Below, one piece after another: positions 230 to 28,200 of a DNA stretch of 64,000 nt. Below the pieces are notes generated by a model, which saw only the letters and a program-made list of their open reading frames with translations, had not been told where the DNA came from and made no database searches. Both the position numbers and the translations under genes were made by a program. Within the stretch, counting starts at the first letter, position 1. Every line of letters starts with the position of its first letter. This DNA comes from Pagrus major (lineage: Eukaryota; Chordata; Actinopteri; Spariformes; Sparidae), in NCBI RefSeq assembly GCF_040436345.1, contig NC_133230.1, positions 8,019,297-8,083,296 on the forward strand. Reading direction: 5' to 3'.

Positions 230-7135
<6,906 letters not shown>

Positions 7136-8463: not shown

Positions 8464-11209
8464 ATGGACCTGACGCGGCTGGCGGTGGATGCGGGTCAGT
8501 TCATCAACCGCGCTGTTCAGGTAAAAAATACAAAATACTCTATTGTATTCCATTCGCGTCGAGTGTCTGCAATACTGTCGTTTTTTAAAGTGGTTGCATG
8601 GTGTTAATCTCAGTCTGTAATCCTGCTCTAGTACACCGGGGAGAGTCTTGGTCAGGCGGATAAGACAGAGTTGGACCCCGGGCTGGAGGAGCTCCTGGCC
8701 CGGGCAGACGCCACCAAGACCTGGACGGACAGGATGATCTCCCAGACTGAGGTTTTACTGCAGCCCAGCCCCGGTGAGAGAGAGCATATTGTTCATCTGT
8801 GCGTATTTATTCATTGAAGTTGTCTGCAGCTGCAGTGCTTCATTTAAGTCTTAAAGGGGCAGTCTGTATATTTGGAGAAGAAATTCAAACCCAGAGATTT
8901 ATTGTTTACAATATTATTGACAACATAATAATATTTTTCCATATGTGAATAAACAAGCTGTTCTCAGAGGTAAATAAGGTCCCCAGATCACTGTTTGAAT
9001 CTAGAAAGGTGGCAGGGTCCGCCACATATAAACAAAGTGAAACAGTATGAAATTGGCTATTCAGTTTATTCAGTCCTGAAAACATAGTTTGTTTATGTAG
9101 TTTGTTTAATAAATCAGTAAATGAGAATCTTTCTTTCCCTAAAAACTACATAGTGCACCTTTAATTCATCCATAGCGACCCTTTAGAAATTGTCCTACAT
9201 ATTAATTGTGCATAAATCGTCTAATTAAAGGTGTTGGTAGGAGCTGTGATATCAGTGAGTATATGAAGTTTATAAATACATGATGTTTTCAACAATACTT
9301 GAACATTCAAGATGTTGTATTGTACATGTAGACACGTTTGCGTCACACCACGACCACTTGTAGACGTCACCAACACGTGGGCTCTAGTCGTCGTGGTCTC
9401 CTTAAAACCACTGAATGATGACGACTATGAGTCTTCACCTCTGCCCCCCCAAGGCCCGTATTTCCGCTCTGTTTTTTGCCATCCTGCAATATATGTGCTC
9501 TTCTGTTTTGCTTTGACTGTAATTGGCCTGTTCAGATGAATAGGAACGGTCATTCTTTTGCCTGTTTGAATCCAATTACCTCAGCTAATGGATTCAAGAG
9601 TGGACGTGGTCTGTAATCTATCAAATAAGGGGAGCATTCAGCTGCCAGAAGTAATAGTCTCATACGTCAATTTATTAAGGATGTGTTTGCAGATCATGTC
9701 TTTAATCTCTGTGAGGAGCCATTTTTGTTTTCTTTAGATACACATCGGTTTCTGACGAGGGATTGCAAACTGTTTTTTTTACATTATTTTATAAAAATGT
9801 CGGTTTTTATCACTTGTCCTTGTAGATTGAAATATTAATTCTATGCAGCGAGTTAAGTAGCTTGATTAGTGGTGTTTTAATAGCATGCATTGTACTGACA
9901 TCCGTTTTGACACCCATGTTTTGTCAGTGGCTTTTTAGAAAGGATAACCCTTAAACCTGAATATAGCTCTCTGATCCCTGATGAACAGGAGCGCGGTTAG
10001 AGGACCGGCTGTATGGGCATCTGGATTGGACCGTCCCACCACGGCCTCGTGCAACTGAGGCTCTGGGAGACCAGATGATCCAGGCTGGGATGGAGTTTGG
10101 GACCAATACACCCTATGGTGAGTATATGTGAATATGGATAATGTTGATTCCACTTTTCTTCTCCAGTATGGACATGTTGAAATGTTCTGAGACAGCAGCA
10201 TGTTCTGTGTTCAGGAACGGCTCTGCTCAGATGTGGAGAGGCTCAGAAGCAGCTTGGCGAGGCAGAGAAGAAGTTCGTCCAAAGCACCAACATCCACTTT
10301 CTCAACCCTCTGAGGAGGTTCTCTGAGGGGGAGTACAAAGCTATACAGGTGACACACGTCTGAATCCATACCCGTACACACCACCATTGTGATTGTATGT
10401 TTGGGCACCACACTCAGCAACTGCATTTCTAATCTGTGTTCCTTTATTCGGGCCCACTCTGTTGTTTACAAATTGTAAACAATAAACATGGTTTATTAAA
10501 AAGTGTGTGTGTGTTTTGTTTTTTCATAGGATGAGCGCAGGATGTTGGTAAATAAGCGTTTGGACTTGGACATCGCTATTGCCAGAGTGAGGAAAGCCCA
10601 CGAGGCTGACCGAGAGGCCAGAGTGAGTTCCAATAACCTTTTCTTTTTTAGAAACGAGAACAGTTTTTTTTTTTTATACCTGTATCATACCGGGATCGAT
10701 CCAAAAACTTAAAACCTTTTTTTTTCTTAATCATGCAGTGAATACAGTATCTTCTCATCCCATGCTTTTCCCTGTCTCTGTCAGAACCTGAATGCAAACC
10801 CCCTGGATGACGACTACATAGCTCATGTCTCCTACATGTTCAGCTTCCTGCGTGTTAAATGGCTGAAGGTCAGTGACGCTAAAGTGACATGAACATCGTC
10901 AGGCACACTTAAGCTTGCTGTTTGGTCATTTGTCCTTCTCCGTCTCTCTCATCCAATCAGATATGGGCTCAGGAAATCTCTCAGGTGAGTTTATCTTTGC
11001 TTGCACATTGTTTCTGCTGTAATGGAGTGAGACTACTTTGACTCTTCCAGCAGTTATACTGTGAAATTGAGTACGGCCCTGTTAGTTGCAGTAATAGTTT
11101 TCTGTTGTTTAGTTCATTTAGAGTTAAGCCCTTCGGGGATATGGGTTTTGCTAATGGGAAATTTTCAGAAAAATAGCTGGGTATAATTGGAAAGACCATA
11201 AAAGGCTTA

Positions 11210-11240
<31 letters not shown>

Positions 11241-12546
11241 TGTGTTGTAGGCTGAGATGGAGCTGAGGATCTGTCAGAGTTTGTTCGATCGTCAGTCGGA
11301 AATGACAATACAAGTTGCGGAAGGAATCAGCAACATTCACGTATGTATATAAATGTATGCATTAATATTTGTAACATGAACTTTAAAGTATCCAATGCCC
11401 AGCAAAATGCTATTGTTGTGTCTTTTTTATTCCAGATCAACCACATGCGGACCCTGACTGACTTTGTGGAGGCTCAGGCCTGTTATTTCGACCAGTGCCA
11501 CCAACATGCTCAGGACCTTCAGAAACAGCTGGCCAGGTCTGTATACAACCTAAAAACTAAATCTTTAGTAGAGCTAAACTAATGCAAGGAAGTTCCTCAT
11601 TGCTTAGGAAATACCAACATTGTTTTTTTCTTTTTTATGCCTCAGGTATTTTAAATGAATTATGAATGAAGTTTTCTCACAGTTTTCCAACAAAGCATTA
11701 CCGAGCTAAAATTTGGAGCGGAGGTATGAGTCTTTTATTGGACACTGACAAGATTGAAAAGCAAATGTAGTACAACATGGGATCCAATTTTTTCATCCAG
11801 TCAAAGCTATAACCCAGTTGGCAAAGAAGATGCCAAATTTTTACCATTTCTAGGAGCCAAGACATCTGTGCTCACAGAGAACACAAGACTATTGAGAATA
11901 CGTTTTAAAGAAAAAATACATTTTTGGTTGGTTATGAATTTGTTTTTCTCCTTGCAGCATTCCAGCAGTCCTCTGCTCCAATAACTGGCAGTCGGCAGTT
12001 AATGAGCCATCAACAAGCAACCATGTAGCCAATGATGCTGTCGGGTTAAATCAAGTCATTCCACTTCCCGTAATCGTCCACCAACTTCCAGAATTCAACC
12101 AGGACTCGTGGACCGTGAATCCAGCAGATTCCTCTGTAAACACACAGCCAGTTAATCAGACAAATAACAACAATAACAACACCCTCTTCACCGATGGCCA
12201 GGCAACCACCAGCTGTCCAGCGAGCGACCATCATGTCTGTACATCAAACCTGGTCGGTAACCCAACAGATCAGATCTCAACACTCAGCAGAACCAACGGT
12301 GCAGATAGTCTAACAACAACAGCTTCCCCAACTTCTGAGCTCAGTGGAACGTCAAACGAGTCCCAGGCAGCAGATACAGCAGCTAGTGAGACCATAACAA
12401 CCGCCGACATGGATACGGAGAACTTGACAACCAATGGCACGGCTACTGAAACCCAAACAACCAATGGTACCGCAAGCGAGCTGCCCACCATTAATGCAGA
12501 AGATGTTCAGGAGTCATCAATTGACGGTCAGGCTGGGGTTCACTAA
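8464..12546 (+). CDS. Endophilin-B-like N-BAR protein lacking the SH3 domain
   Basis: Ten exons read by splice sites: 8464-8520, 8632-8773, 9989-10117, 10215-10348, 10530-10622, 10785-10868, 10961-10984 (a 24-base microexon), 11251-11340, 11436-11536, 11958-12546; total 480 residues. The start MDLTRLAVDAGQFINRAVQ matches the amphipathic helix 0 of SH3GLB1/2, and TEVLLQP, FLNPLRRF, NKRLDLDIA, FDRQSEMT and LQKQLA mark an endophilin-B N-BAR domain over about residues 1-285. Family members bend membranes in autophagy, mitochondrial and endosomal traffic. Family members normally end in an SH3 domain after a short linker. Here the last exon instead encodes about 196 residues rich in Thr, Asn, Ser and Ala, with a near-duplicated NGTATET/NGTASEL motif, then a stop. 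No SH3 motif (ALYDY-type) was found downstream. It may be a third endophilin-B paralogue; membrane binding is inferred, partner recruitment by SH3 is not expected. Confidence 0.88.
8851..9164. mobile_element. MITE with TTAA ends in intron 2 of the endophilin-B-like gene
   Basis: The 314-bp block starts TTAAAGGGGCAGTCTGTA and its other end, read on the opposite strand, starts TTAAAGGTGCACTATGTA. The inverted ends agree at 15 of 18 positions and both carry TTAA. TTAA target sites are typical of piggyBac-type elements. There is no coding sequence, so it would be non-autonomous. The family assignment is inferred from the ends alone. Confidence 0.6.
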
Positions 12547-19391: not shown

Positions 19392-19397
19392 TATAAA
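19392..19397 (+). promoter_or_regulatory. TATA box of the PTX3-like gene
   Basis: TATAAA lies 118 bases before the start codon at 19510, preceded by a C-rich stretch. This predicts transcription starting near 19420-19430 and a 5' UTR of about 80-90 bases. Confidence 0.55.
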
Positions 19398-19509: not shown

Positions 19510-21401
19510 ATGCATGTGTTCGGGGTCTGGCGTGTGCTGTGTGTGCTTGGTTTGGTGGGTGCATCACTGTGTGGGAATGAGGTGGAGTATGAAGGGAACT
19601 ACGCCGACAGCTATGACAACGAGATCTCTCAGGACCAGCAGGGGGGTGAGTTTTGTTTATTTATCCTTTTGTCTCTTTTATTCCCTGCTTGTTTGTACAG
19701 ATGGCTCATTGTGAAGAATCAGCTGCCATGCCGGATTTCACTAAGCCAATAAAATAAGTCTTATGTGTTTTGATTAAAAATTCACCAGCAGACACTGATT
19801 TGTTTGTTTCCTTTAGTTAAGTAAAGGTGTCCTGCAGGCGTCTATTCTTGGTGCACTTCTATTCACTACATGAGCCTTGCTCCCACCAAACTGTTTGGCT
19901 CAGTTCAGTTCACATTTTGTTAAACATATGAACAGTTCTTTTTGCCTTTCCATTATCTTAAATTGTGGATGTTACCAAAATAATGAAAAGCTTGTTTCCT
20001 TGTTGTATTAACCAACCACACTTGTGTGCCGTATAGCTGCAAGTAGCGAGTGTGAAGCAATGCAAACCGGATCTCACATTTAGGTACAGTTACCACAGGT
20101 TATGTACAGTTCAAAGGTTACTATACTGAAAATACATTGGTGGAAACAAGGCATAAAAATACATCTGTGCCGGTCCACGTTGTAATGTACATTTTTATGC
20201 AGATGATGCCATTTTTAGCTGTCATGGAAGTGATTTGCGTTTTACTTCATTTATCTTAAAAATTCCCAAACTATCGTTGCTTTCTGATAACATCAAAACA
20301 GAGTAAGTGTAATGTCAGGTGACAGGTTATTCAAACTTTAACGCATGTTCAAAAAGAGCTAGGGAAAGCTAGTTTTAATGGTATTGCTTGTAAGAAAAGT
20401 TGATTTTTAAGTCTCATTCCCAACTTGTCAAAAACTGACTTCTTGGGATGGCAGCCAGTCGATGCACAGTACCAAATGATCAGTAATCCTTTCATCTTCC
20501 AAAACCTTCTTTATTACCCTACTGCAACTGTGAAATACATTCTGAAGAATATCAGTGTTGTTAATACGATTGTTCCAATTTTTTTTTTTTTTTTGTTCTT
20601 CCACTGTACCAACATTTAAGATCTTGTAAGTATTTTATGATATGTGCAATGAAGTTACACTGTATTATAACATGTAACCAAGTTAAATAATATTTCATAT
20701 TTGTTATTTTTTTGGTAACTTTTGGTATTTGATAATAACTTATCAACTGACAGTGGGACTTGTATAATTAATACTCCCTGTGGTATTTGTCAACAGGGGA
20801 AACTCCAACCACCCCATGCCAGACTTTAGACTTTTCCCGCTGGGACAAGCTGTTCATCGCTCTCGAGAACTCCCACATGAGGCAGAACATGCTGCTGGAC
20901 TCTCTTGAGCAATGTTGTGGAGGAATGTCCTCTCTTAGGACGCAGGTGGACAGGCTAGCTCAGGGAACATGCCAGCAGTGTCTACCCAGCCTGGAGTCAG
21001 TGTGCAGGGCGCAAGCGGAGCAGGCGAGAGTCAGGCTGCAGCAAGGCTTGGTGGAGCTCAGACAGGAGGAAGCAGCAAGGCAGAGGAGCTTGAACGCTAC
21101 CTTGCAGCAGCTCCTGCACAGTAGCCATGAAGGTAACGCTCGGCTGAAGCGGCTGGAGGAAACATCAGGACCATCAGACAGCAGGTTCGGGCACCAACCA
21201 ACGCAGAGACCGGGAGGTTTAGGGGGGATGAAGTCATTCCCATCTCTCCTGAAGGAACAGGAGGTGACTTCACCAACGGACATGGCCACAATGGAAATGG
21301 CCCTGGTTGCCATAGCAACAGAGCTTCAGAAGGTTCACCTGCAGCTGAGCAAAGTGATCGAGCAGGCAGGAACAATGAGGAAGGACAGAGGAGACACATG
21401 A
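19510..21401 (+). CDS. PTX3-like protein with the N-terminal domain only
   Basis: Two exons, 19510-19645 and 20797-21401, joined in phase 1, give 246 residues. Residues 1-22 form a signal peptide (MHVFGVWRVLCVLGLVGASLCG). The acidic stretch after it and the core WDKLFIALENSHMRQNMLL match human PTX3 (WDKLFIMLENSQMRERMLL). The exon 1/2 junction after about 45 residues also matches PTX3. Exon 2 is coiled-coil-like with several Cys (EQCCGG, GTCQQC), which in PTX3 mediate oligomers. PTX3 is a secreted pattern-recognition protein; its third exon encodes the pentraxin domain that binds C1q and microbes. Here the frame ends at TGA 21399-21401, followed by poly(A) signals, and no pentraxin exon was found anywhere in the window. 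It is either a truncated paralogue, a decoy-type secreted coiled coil, or a decaying gene. The open frame is intact. Confidence 0.82.
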
Positions 21402-21421
21402 ATTGCCCACAGGGAAAAAAT

Positions 21422-21531
21422 AATAAAAGATAAGCTGGGGACACTCCAGCGATAACGATTTTGCACATACTCATTTTTAAGGGCCTTTTTTTAAAAAATA
21501 CGTGAGCTCGTTTATTTCTGGTGACAATAAA
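21422..21531 (+). terminator. Poly(A) signals of the PTX3-like gene
   Basis: AATAAA occurs at 21422-21427 and again at 21526-21531, 21 and 125 bases after the stop codon. Their closeness supports a transcript that ends here, without a third exon. Confidence 0.65.
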
Positions 21532-23909: not shown

Positions 23910-25274
23910 CTATTTAATGGGTGAGTCCAGAATCTCCTCATACTCCTCCCTCTGGCGGCGCCCTGCCCCGCGGGAGGGTAGCAGCTTCATCGCCACCAGC
24001 CAACCGACGCTCAGTATGACCATCACGTTCCCGACGACCTCCGGCGCAGTGGGAGCCAACGGCAGCACGGCCAGATGCAGCAGCATGGCGACAGGTATCT
24101 CCAGGCTCTGAGAGGCGGAGACCAAAGCCGGGTGGAGTCGTGTGAGGGCGTGCGTCATACCCAGGAAGGCGGCAACCGAGCAGGCGACCAGGCCAAGGAC
24201 GAGACCCCAGGCTTGGGCACTTGTAGGCCAGGACCAGCCCTCCTGGAGCAGAACCAAGGAGGCCGGGGCGAGCAGGCAGCCCGTCCAGCTGACTGTGAAC
24301 AAAGCCGTGCCCACTCCCACCCTCTCCTTCAGGGAGCGATACCCGACCAGCGCCAGAGCCATCCACAGCCCTGCGAGAGCCGCGAGAGACCAGCCGAACG
24401 CACCCCTCCAGAACACAACTGGGTCGGTCGGTGCGTCTGAATTGCTCTCGTCATCTGTGGGAAGCAACACAAGCCCCAAACCGCACAGTCCTGCAGCTAA
24501 GGTGATCCCATCAGCCAATCCCAGCCTCTCCTCCAGGAGCAGGAAGGCCAGGGTCACCGACAGCGCCGTGGTTGCTAGGCGCCACATCGTTGTGCCATTT
24601 CCAGGAGAGACGAAGGTTAATGAGGAGTAGGCGCAGCAAAGGGAGAGAGAATAGGCGATGCCGTAGCAGAGGAGACGTAGGCGGTAGCCCTCTGGTCCAA
24701 AAGGGTTCTCCCCCCTGTGCAGTGGTACAGCCACAGACAGCAGCTGGACGATGGATCGAACCAAGAGCAGAAACAGGGGGCCCAGGCTGAAGCGTTCAGA
24801 GGCGAGGCGGGTCAGGACGATCAAACAGCCGTGAGCCAGCGCCGCACCAACCAGCCCCACCCAGGTGAGCCGGGACGCAGACACAGACGCCTCCCCGAAA
24901 CTGGCCAGCTGTTCCCCTACCCCTCTCCCTGACCCCTTTGCCCCTCTAGCTACCCCCTCGCCTCCATCTCCTCCCCCAGCAGCAGCAGCAGCCGGAGGTT
25001 TGCTGCTCGTGTCCTTGTCTTTGGAGCCAAACAGAGTCAATGGCCACTTCTTGGACTCCGTCAACTGTTTCTTGTCTGACGTCTCCTCCAGGAAGGAGCC
25101 AAAGTCCTCAAAAGATGGAGCATCGTCGTAGCCTTCGTCCCCAGGTTGGGGGAAGTGTGTGTGCACCCCAGGTTGAGGGGAGTAGGGGGTGTGCGTGGCG
25201 TATTTGGCAGTGACAGTGTGAGGGTGGATCTTTACTCTCTTCTTAGAGCTGCCCAGGAGGTGAGTTGACTCCAT
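23910..25274 (-). CDS. slc35g2: SLC35G2 (TMEM22), EamA/DMT-type multi-pass membrane protein
   Basis: One uninterrupted coding exon, 454 residues. The N-terminal KKRVKIHPHTV, the QPGDEGYDD stretch and the exact C-terminal EILDSPIK identify SLC35G2. From about residue 137 there are ten hydrophobic segments in two EamA repeats (LTWVGLVGAALAHGCLIVLT first; CAYSSLTFVSPGNGTTMWR after the fourth; the second repeat runs to LSVGWLVAMKLL). The family belongs to the nucleotide-sugar/drug-metabolite transporter clan, but the substrate of SLC35G2 is not established. An Ala/Gly-rich insert (PPAAAAAGGGDGGEG, around residues 93-107) makes the cytosolic N-terminus longer than in human (454 versus about 412 residues). 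A 3' splice site on the minus strand (CCCTCGCAG then GTCTTC, exon beginning at 25294) shows that at least one non-coding 5' exon lies upstream. The gene faces the PTX3-like gene tail to tail. Confidence 0.96.
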   Translation of the reverse strand: MESTHLLGSSKKRVKIHPHTVTAKYATHTPYSPQPGVHTHFPQPGDEGYDDAPSFEDFGSFLEETSDKKQLTESKKWPLTLFGSKDKDTSSKPPAAAAAGGGDGGEGVARGAKGSGRGVGEQLASFGEASVSASRLTWVGLVGAALAHGCLIVLTRLASERFSLGPLFLLLVRSIVQLLSVAVPLHRGENPFGPEGYRLRLLCYGIAYSLSLCCAYSSLTFVSPGNGTTMWRLATTALSVTLAFLLLEERLGLADGITLAAGLCGLGLVLLPTDDESNSDAPTDPVVFWRGAFGWSLAALAGLWMALALVGYRSLKERVGVGTALFTVSWTGCLLAPASLVLLQEGWSWPTSAQAWGLVLGLVACSVAAFLGMTHALTRLHPALVSASQSLEIPVAMLLHLAVLPLAPTAPEVVGNVMVILSVGWLVAMKLLPSRGAGRRQREEYEEILDSPIK

Positions 25275-28200
25275 TTTTAAACCTCAATGAAGACCTGCGA
25301 GGGAGGAGAAAGGACACTTTTAGAGCCACATACAACATAAATTTTACACAAACGTTACCTCTCTCTACTTTCACCCTCCAGCAGCCTCTCTCTCTGGGAT
25401 GTTGCCTGATATCTCATATATCTTTAATATCCCAGATAATAATAGCAGGAGATGTGACTCACATCTTCCCATGTGCCCCGCATGTTTGGCGGGGGATGCA
25501 CGTAAGCACTGCCCGTCTGAGCAATCACAAGTTTAATTGTTTTTTCTATGTGATGAGAGTTCACATTGAGTTCATTTTAGCGGAATCATACAGAACCAGA
25601 ACGACAGATTAGCAAAGCCATTACTGCTCCTTTTAGTCTTCTTAGACACCGCAACCTTGAAGGGGGGGTTAGAGATTGCTGGCAATGACAGTTACATAAG
25701 GAAGTGCTGACTGCCTCATTTGTCTTTTATCTCTCTGTGTCTAACTATGTTTTCTGCCTCTGTCTTCTTCCTTTTCTCTACACATTCATGCACGGAAAAT
25801 CAGAACTATAATAGTCTATGAATTGTGCATCCCATGTCTCATCTAATCTCTCCTTCTCCTTTCTTCTCTCCGTCTCTTCAACTTTTCCCTTCAAGGTCCT
25901 CCCGCTCCACGGATGACTAACCTATTACCGACGTAGTAACAGCCCTCTGCAGCAGAACAATATGGTCATGCAGGTGCTGTATGGCACACTGCTGCATTTC
26001 AGCTCGTAAAACTCTCAGCAGTCCACCGGTTTCTCTGGGAACGGGGAACACTTTCACACGGTGTAATGTTTATTTTTCATGTAAAGCCATATGGAGCATA
26101 GTGCTCAGTTATTTCCCAGGAGCTGCAAAGTAAGCCATTACCCAACAGTAATTTGGCCTCTTTTCTTGTCTATATTGAAATTTAAAAAAGCCATATATAC
26201 GTACAATAACTGTACAAGCATGTCCTCTGTGGACTCTGACAGTGTTTGCACTCTGTAGAATTGCTTTGAACAGAAATAAAAACATTGGCTTTTTCTTGCA
26301 ATAGTTCTTATGAACTGAATGCGACACAACCACAGCAAACGAACCACATCGTCACTTGACTTTTTGATATACTGTAGCTACACACACAATCTAAGTGGCC
26401 ATTCATACTTTAATCACAACATGTCAGCAATAATTCAATGGCAAGACTGACGCCTGCTTAACAGCCTGCATGAGCCACACAACACGCATCATGCAGAGCT
26501 TCGCCTATTTTTCCACGTCAAGCATGCAGTTCTCAACAAAAATAGACCTGAAAGTAATATATAGCTAGTCATACCAACATCTAACCAAATAAAATAGATG
26601 TGTTTTGACATTATTGCATGTTGATTTAAGTCAGTGTAAGCAAAACAAGGTCATAAACTTAGCATAATTGTGGATCTGAGCCATTGTGTGAAGCAGTTTT
26701 GTCCAAATGGAGGTTGTTGGGTAAAATGTGCCAGATGTTGGGGCAGGTTCAGCCAAAGGACTACTTTTTTTCATTGTTATGAAACCATCATAATTAGATA
26801 ACTTGTTATAATTTCCATGGGTACACAACAACCTGAGGTATATATAGTAACTATTATTAGAAACAATTACACTTTCATTTTGCAGCAAAATAATCAAATG
26901 TAAAAAGTGGCTCATCTTACCCCTTCGTCCTCTGCTTAGGCAGAACGGTGATATGATCTACATGCTAATGTCATCGTGCTAACATGCTAATTAAACACCT
27001 GAAACCAAAGTACTTTATCACATTAATGCAAAAGATATATATATAAAAAAAACAATGCTGCCACAAGACAGTCCTGCACATCGACTGCCAACACTGACCT
27101 CATACTGCCAGAGTTGTTCAGGGACACTACAATATAACCTGCATCTACTCTCTGACATCATCTTCTCATACCACCCAACTCTGACAATTCAAATACATGC
27201 CAGACAAAGTCACATTTTATCAGGCTAGTGAAACAGCTCTTCAGTTTCACTATATTTTTTCCTGCTCAGCCTAAAGGTCTGGATGAACGATCTGACTGCA
27301 GCAGTTTTAGCAGCTCGCTGCTGTTTCTCACACTCTCGGTGGTGCAGTCTGTTTGATTTGGTGGAAGCAGGAGGATGCGAGTGAATTTGTGGCCAGCTAG
27401 GAGGCCTTTACCCTCTCTGGAGGTGTCGAGTAGTCCCACGGATGAGCCTGAATTATAAACAGACAGGAGGGTCATGGTGTGGAGTGCTGTTTTAAATCAT
27501 AACATAACATCAATTATTTTAAGTAGGATATAAATACTTGTCTTTGAAAATATTGGTTTTGAGGAAATTGAACTTTTCAGCTTTAATGAATCCCTTCTTA
27601 AATCTCCAAAACTTGTAAATCTGTCCTGCGCTCAAACGATGAATCTGGACTGAATGAAACTGTGGCTTCGATTACACAACTTCTCAGCCCGCTGAATGAA
27701 GTAAAAAATAGCCACAGGCTTGAGTTTGCACTGGTGACATTTGAGAAGATGTAGTCATTCACTTCTCAAAGGTAGACGGAAAGAAAGAAGCCTGATCTGC
27801 TGCTCAGGAAGAGCAAAAAAGAGATCAAAACGTTCCTGTGTGACTCTTTGCTTCTCAGTCGGTAATATTTACGGCCGTGGATGATGCAGCCTACCTCTGC
27901 AATGCCGCTGCTGCTGCTCTCAAAAGCTTGTTTCACACCTTACACAACCCTAAAGTGAGCGGCTACGAGCCAACACCAAAAAAAGAAAAGAAAAGGTGAG
28001 CCCAGCAGCAGAAAAATCTAACTGTATGCTGTCCTCCTGGTGTATTTATATCCATCTTCTACTATATTTCATTTGACAAACATCCTCTAAAGACTCCCAT
28101 GCTTTTACGAGCAATAACATATTTGATATGGACTATTAACAGGCTAATCAATTTGTCACTGGTGCTCCTGAACAGCCTGAAAGCTTTATGCAGCTGTCAT

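Follow-up and report, generated by a model that had tools for sequence, protein, structure and literature searches.

The stretch of Pagrus major DNA analysed here (64,000 nucleotides, hereafter the window) contains a short gene resembling the first part of PTX3, which raises the question of whether a PTX3 gene that ends before its pentraxin domain is a working protein, a broken copy or an accident of assembly. The sequence-only reading of this locus had described PTX3-like exons 1 and 2, a frame that stops in exon 2 with poly(A) signals 21 and 125 bases later, and hence a gene reduced to a signal peptide and a Cys-bearing coiled-coil N-domain. This description is borne out. From the ATG at 19510, exon 1 reaches a GTGAGT donor at 19646, the acceptor CAG ends at 20796, and the two exons, spliced in phase 1, give an intact coding sequence of 741 nt (246 aa) closed by a TGA at 21399-21401. 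The features are listed below; P0001 is the headless (i.e. pentraxin-less) PTX3 protein of Dicentrarchus, and row counts refer to the alignments discussed further on.

19392..19397, + strand: TATAAA, a likely core promoter element (judged from the sequence)
19510..19645, + strand: coding part of exon 1, with a predicted signal peptide (about residues 1-21) and the acidic YDNEIS segment, ending in phase 1
19646..20796, + strand: intron GTGAGT...CAG, phase 1, 1151 bases, across which protein relatives are uninterrupted
20797..21401, + strand: coding part of exon 2, with the PTX3-type N-domain and the stop TGA (P0001 match, E 5.0e-99)
20817..20819, + strand: Cys53 codon, an old stalk cysteine aligned to human Cys47 (alignment, row counts)
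20913..20918, + strand: Cys85-Cys86 codons, a pair gained in the headless clade (row counts)
20979..20981, + strand: Cys107 codon, aligned to human Cys103 (alignment, row counts)
21003..21005, + strand: Cys115 codon, common to ptx3b and absent from ptx3a (row counts)
21093..21101, + strand: N-glycosylation sequon NAT at residue 145, common to ptx3b (row counts)
21387..21398, + strand: C-terminal RGDT (endings of the listed relatives)
21422..21427, + strand: AATAAA poly(A) signal, 21 bases past the stop
21526..21531, + strand: AATAAA poly(A) signal, 125 bases past the stop

The encoded protein consists, in order, of a hydrophobic leader, the acidic YDNEIS segment, the WDKLFIALENSHMRQNMLL block and RGDT at the end. 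Its best two matches among solved structures are both human PTX3 (7zl1, E 6.8e-12; 8s50, E 9.9e-12; query residues 26-119), which indicates a likeness beyond chance, and its alignment with full-length PTX3 extends through the last N-domain helix. A genome search with P0001 recovers the two window exons (exon 1 at E 5.6e-19) plus a weak match to ptx3a. Pfam finds no pentraxin in the 246-aa protein and has no model for the PTX3 N-domain part. The N-terminus is hydrophobic by inspection and a structure model of P0001 has a helix at residues 3-20; on these grounds the product is predicted to carry a signal peptide and to be secreted.

The third, pentraxin-coding exon is missing. With the pentraxin domains of full-length PTX3 (five proteins) as tblastn queries, the window yields, over all frames, a best match of only E 0.16, and a whole-genome search with PF00354 gives 64 matches, all on other contigs and none on the contig that carries the window (C16). 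The earlier statement that the window holds no pentraxin exon is thereby confirmed, and for a transcript spliced onwards from exon 2, which that reading had weighed against itself, the contig offers no pentraxin exon as a target. It had likewise considered an assembly deletion at a locus with an intact exon 3 in relatives; the listed relatives are headless too, and the window with 100 kb on each side (264 kb) contains no N, so that an assembly gap does not explain the missing exon. Of the three-exon PTX3 layout (leader, N-domain and pentraxin), exons 1 and 2 are present and exon 3 is absent. The protein has the PTX3-type N-domain that marks the PTX3 lineage by descent and has no C-terminal pentraxin domain with the HxCxS/TWxS signature of the pentraxin family (PF00354). 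Defined by domain, it falls outside the pentraxins; its ancestry makes it a PTX3 gene. Elsewhere in the genome, short-pentraxin clusters, probably of the CRP/SAP type, lie at C17:16750965-16785177 and C23:26738469-26759667, and several of their pieces contain in-frame stops.

A full-length ptx3 elsewhere in the genome, for which the sequence-only reading had proposed a search, does exist. It is ptx3a, located on contig C2 (22.086-22.092 Mb); its pentraxin exon is open over 220 residues and shares 97.7% identity with its counterpart in Acanthopagrus schlegelii (P0237). Its exon 1 is not found within the fetched stretch (C2:22086000-22094500). In the same stretch, on the minus strand, an intron interrupts its N-domain exon, one more than in the three-exon layout reported for zebrafish, and its exon 2/3 junction reads CCCGCAG/GTAAG. 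Exon 2 of the headless gene is unsplit and has no donor at the place matching this junction, and P0001 aligns to just 33 residues of ptx3a.

Genes of the headless type occur widely in other fishes. A protein search returned 169 relatives, of which the 120 listed are 178-293 aa long and have no recorded Pfam domain. Named species among them include Osmerus, Polymixia, Lampris, Centroberyx and a wide range of Percomorpha; the listed relatives without exon 1 are the shorter ones, mostly read from single contigs. Limited to longer proteins, the search returns five full-length PTX3 proteins (Chanos, Myxocyprinus, Alosa, Conger and Danionella) and one Sebastes fusion model. In euteleosts, database entries named 'pentraxin-related protein PTX3-like', 'uncharacterized protein LOC...' and 'Pentraxin 3, long b' belong to the same headless family; they are about 230-260 aa when complete, and their names give no hint of the missing domain. 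We found no pentraxin-less PTX3 in fishes described in the open-licence literature. Judged from these proteins, the headless state appears to be old and common to many bony fishes, not a local accident, and its presence in so many of them makes it look like a working protein, not a broken copy. The counts below use an alignment of 64 headless models hand-picked among the 120 listed, and a search for full-length proteins in which 120 of 319 matches are listed.

The ancestry of the gene is addressed by a tree of 59 N-domains (15 headless and 44 full-length), made up of the window gene and 58 proteins chosen from 242. The labels a and b follow database names, the zebrafish paper (PMC7409334) and a Danionella model fused to golim4. 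All headless proteins fall into a single clade (100/100) on a long stem branch (0.83); this clade joins the full-length ptx3b of Otocephala (100/100), followed by the elopomorph copies (95/92). Full-length PTX3 of euteleosts, that of Osmerus, Lampris and Myripristis among them, falls in the ptx3a branch, as do the listed proteins of salmonids, pike and other early euteleosts, which are full-length; the deep a/b split is less well supported (86/69 and 91/76). Trees that place the headless proteins with euteleost ptx3a, or with the whole ptx3a sample, are rejected by AU tests (p 9e-8 and p 3.6e-5, respectively). These tests and the different exon layout rule out a partial copy of ptx3a. The ptx3b branch holds 40 of the 121 full-length proteins; 39 are named, and all 39 come from Otocephala or Elopomorpha, with none from Euteleostei.

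Two single characters agree with the ptx3b placement. Cys115 is present in 64/64 headless, 26/36 ptx3b and 0/71 ptx3a rows, and the sequon at residue 145 in 61/64, 22/36 and 0/71, respectively, eight full-length rows having been dropped from the sequon counts for a failed domain cut (P0137, P0149, P0163, P0185, P0188, P0201, P0217 and P0240). A KEQ motif was discarded as a ptx3b diagnostic; it occurs in 41/64 headless (as KEQ[EDK]), 25/40 ptx3b and 0/75 ptx3a rows, which is weak evidence, and a similar xEQEV is found in 32/75 ptx3a rows. At the level of sequence, the tree, the AU tests and the shared characters show that the gene groups with full-length ptx3b and belongs to the ptx3b branch, not to ptx3a. 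Taking anatomy and descent together, we are nearly certain that it is a headless euteleost ptx3b.

The surroundings of the gene are as follows.

6384-7132, + strand: 3' atr exons (match to an atr query)
8464-11537, + strand: endophilin-B-like gene (tblastn matches; BAR domain by Pfam)
23910-25283, - strand: slc35g2 (EamA transporter by Pfam; name taken from the sequence-only reading)

The earlier placing between atr and slc35g2 holds on one side: slc35g2 is next downstream, but atr is not the direct neighbour, as the endophilin-B-like gene intervenes. Just after the endophilin-B-like matches comes an open 202-aa frame with a high content of N, S and T and no Pfam match (11938-12543, + strand), which is perhaps part of that gene or of another one. 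A database protein of Sebastes umbrosus (P0121) is a headless PTX3 fused to an endophilin-B protein. Because an endophilin-B gene is also the upstream neighbour in the window, the arrangement is probably common to both fishes and the fusion a gene-model error.

According to PMC7409334, zebrafish ptx3a and ptx3b lie on chromosomes 18 and 2, respectively; each gene has three exons and encodes a pentraxin domain, and ptx3b adjoins golim4b. Full-length ptx3b of otocephalan and elopomorph fishes is thus the closest branch, with which the headless gene has Cys115 and the residue-145 sequon in common; it differs in lacking the pentraxin domain, the three-exon layout and the golim4b neighbourhood of full-length ptx3b such as that of zebrafish. 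No golim4 is found within 100 kb of the headless gene; genome-wide, golim4 matches occur solely at C2:22029249-22042378 (minus strand), about 45 kb from ptx3a. Since golim4 lies only beside ptx3a here, synteny gives the ptx3b assignment no support. As zebrafish ptx3b has golim4b nearby, exon 3 and golim4b may possibly have been removed together in one event.

Sequence divergence suggests that the headless gene is under constraint. Over 210 pairs from 21 genera, headless proteins share a mean identity of 0.682, ptx3a N-domains one of 0.727 and pentraxin domains one of 0.817, and the headless protein is more similar than the ptx3a N-domain in just 33 of the 210 pairs. (Of the 23 genus pairs set up, those of Labrus and Cyclopterus were excluded after a failed domain cut; for Micropterus and Osmerus the two proteins belong to sister species.) By these figures the headless proteins evolve a little faster than the ptx3a stalk, but nowhere near freely. 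If replacements were neutral, roughly 235 stops should have been gained across the 65-row tree. This figure is only indicative and is inflated, as databases hold intact proteins; since such entries are intact by construction, finding no stops in them adds no independent support. As to transcription, four proteins from unannotated contigs (P0005, P0016, P0050 and P0082) run from exon 1 directly into exon 2. Two of these contigs are only 1046 and 990 bases long, too short for an intron like the one of 1151 bases, which points to spliced RNA, and all four probably derive from RNA.

The headless stalk combines old and new cysteines. Human PTX3 stalk positions 47 and 103 are kept as Cys and position 49 is not; Cys53 is present in 59/64 headless, 34/36 ptx3b and 70/71 ptx3a rows, and Cys107 in 52/64, 35/36 and 71/71. 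In PTX3, Cys47 and Cys103 form inter-chain bonds (PMC3668324), and the hinges contain inter-chain disulfides (PMC10598717). Cys85 (64/64 headless rows), Cys86 (59/64) and Cys104 (47/64) do not occur in any of the 36 ptx3b, 71 ptx3a and 6 other full-length rows. The Cys85-Cys86 pair is situated at the end of model helix 60-86, before the long helix 89-168.

The C-terminal end is RGD plus at most two residues in 97 of the 120 listed relatives, and exactly RGDT in 85; RGD is missing in 22. Across the 64 rows, the R, G and D columns are kept at 84, 88 and 81%, compared with 53-77% in the five preceding columns, and only two of the 121 full-length proteins (P0164 and P0239) have an RGD in their first 260 residues. 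The tail is absent from Osmerus, Polymixia, Lampris, Centroberyx, Myripristis, Thalassophryne and some later groups, from six rows in which the end reads otherwise (P0041, P0043, P0052, P0055, P0062 and P0068), and where several single-residue changes occur. Its absence from early branches and some later groups indicates that RGD was acquired only once the head had gone, and that some lineages can do without it. In P0010, a close relative (94% identical), 18 more residues follow RGDT because its stop codon differs, so that RGD is not terminal there.

We propose that ptx3b, one of two PTX3 copies in teleosts, lost its third exon on the euteleost stem, before the split between Osmerus and neoteleosts; exon 2 now closes with a stop codon and poly(A) signals of its own. 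The product would be a secreted stalk made of a signal peptide, the acidic segment, the N-domain coiled coil, a disordered linker and a last helix. Its chains probably assemble in parallel through the coiled coil and are locked by disulfides of the old Cys53 and Cys107 and of the new Cys85-Cys86 at the helix break. The assembly could serve as a soluble or matrix-bound scaffold that uses partners of the PTX3 N-domain (FGFs, hyaluronan heavy chains, fibrinogen and plasminogen) without pattern recognition, and ptx3a would keep the full-length acute-phase and recognition role. Secretion, oligomer state and binding partners are all predictions. For identity and mechanism jointly, i.e. a headless euteleost ptx3b acting as a secreted stalk oligomer, we estimate a probability of about 0.68; the narrower class of mechanism, a disulfide-locked oligomer with matrix or growth-factor roles, we regard as an even bet.

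Several published observations bear on this proposal. PTX3 stalks are tetrameric parallel coiled coils; the stalk binds FGF2, fibrinogen, plasminogen and hyaluronan heavy chains, and the pentraxin domain binds others such as CD44 (PMC10598717). Overexpression of the N-terminal part of human PTX3 lengthens primary cilia via FGF, and the C-terminal part has no such effect (PMC7409334). Infected lumpfish (a percomorph) show increased ptx3a (PMC9692985). Human PTX3 and teleost ptx3a have in common with the headless gene a signal-peptide exon, an N-domain exon, the DNEI and WDKLF/I motifs, the coiled coil and the two stalk cysteines (human 47 and 103), in contrast to its missing pentraxin domain and exon and its gained Cys85, Cys86 and Cys104. 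The recombinant N-terminal fragment, which acts on FGF signalling (PMC7409334), is the same part of PTX3 on its own; it is a laboratory product of the human protein, unlike the headless gene, which is natural and has extra cysteines and mostly an RGD end. The FGF2-binding stretch of human PTX3, given as 97-110 in PMC10598717, aligns to QGTCQQCLPSLESV with only 2 of 14 residues kept, so that FGF binding is not transferable from PTX3, which counts against a plain FGF trap. An AlphaFold2 model of P0001 (64 rows) shows a set of helices at low confidence (mean pLDDT 67, pTM 0.24), and a Foldseek search with it against the PDB gives two matches, none at E 0.001 or better; the model neither supports nor opposes a PTX3 assignment.

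Other explanations have to be weighed against the secreted stalk oligomer. The pentraxin exon could have been lost in assembly or lie farther away, and only a single assembly was seen for this species; the N-free window and 200 kb of flank, the contig with none of the 64 genome-wide pentraxin matches and the listed relatives, which are also without the exon, reject such an accident or a hidden third exon and leave it practically no chance. A decaying ptx3b remnant that yields a short protein without function would fit the loss of the main domain, a divergence slightly above that of the ptx3a N-domain and a C-terminus that varies between groups. It is nonetheless very improbable, given the intact frame and GT-AG intron (neither frame nor splice sites are broken), the identity figures, the identical architecture of relatives, two cysteines that are invariant in 64/64 rows and the inflated expectation of stop gains mentioned above; a new cysteine pair that is created and then fixed is not expected of relaxed decay.

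Two further alternatives accept a working protein and assign it another role. The sequence-only reading had suggested a decoy, a matrix organiser or a mixed-oligomer partner of full-length PTX3, all of them candidate roles. Headless chains might join Ptx3a stalks by way of the coiled coil and of Cys53 and Cys107, and so reduce the number of heads, as a dominant-negative or tuning partner. Both genes are in the same genome, headless and full-length proteins are both listed in 23 genera, and the conserved Cys53 and Cys107, common to both proteins, make mixed oligomers plausible; Cys85-Cys86 and Cys115, found in 0/71 ptx3a rows, argue for self-assembly instead, the N-domains are far apart (33 residues found with P0001) and a stem branch of this length hints at an altered interface, so that we consider regulation of Ptx3a unlikely, if worth bearing in mind. 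We are somewhat more doubtful of a multivalent integrin ligand, in which head loss would have been followed by rebuilding of the stalk as a cysteine-locked coiled-coil bundle that carries, in most listed percomorphs, one C-terminal RGD per chain where PTX3 has its heads, and so organises the matrix by engaging integrins. The frequency of RGD endings and the better-kept R, G and D columns speak for it, as does a tail outside the last model helix (220-253); the early branches without RGD, the six differently ending rows, the single-residue changes and the extension of P0010 speak against it, and short RGD motifs are also produced by chance alone.

As a headless ptx3b, the gene plainly exemplifies how one copy from a whole-genome duplication can diverge through loss of an entire domain. 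It is also a warning that many fish database entries called PTX3-like hold no pentraxin. Work on PTX3 divides the molecule in two: the stalk engages matrix and growth factors, and recognition falls to the head. A natural headless copy beside a full-length one, across a large part of bony fishes, means that the two halves are separated in living animals, and makes it testable which PTX3 functions require the pentraxin domain.
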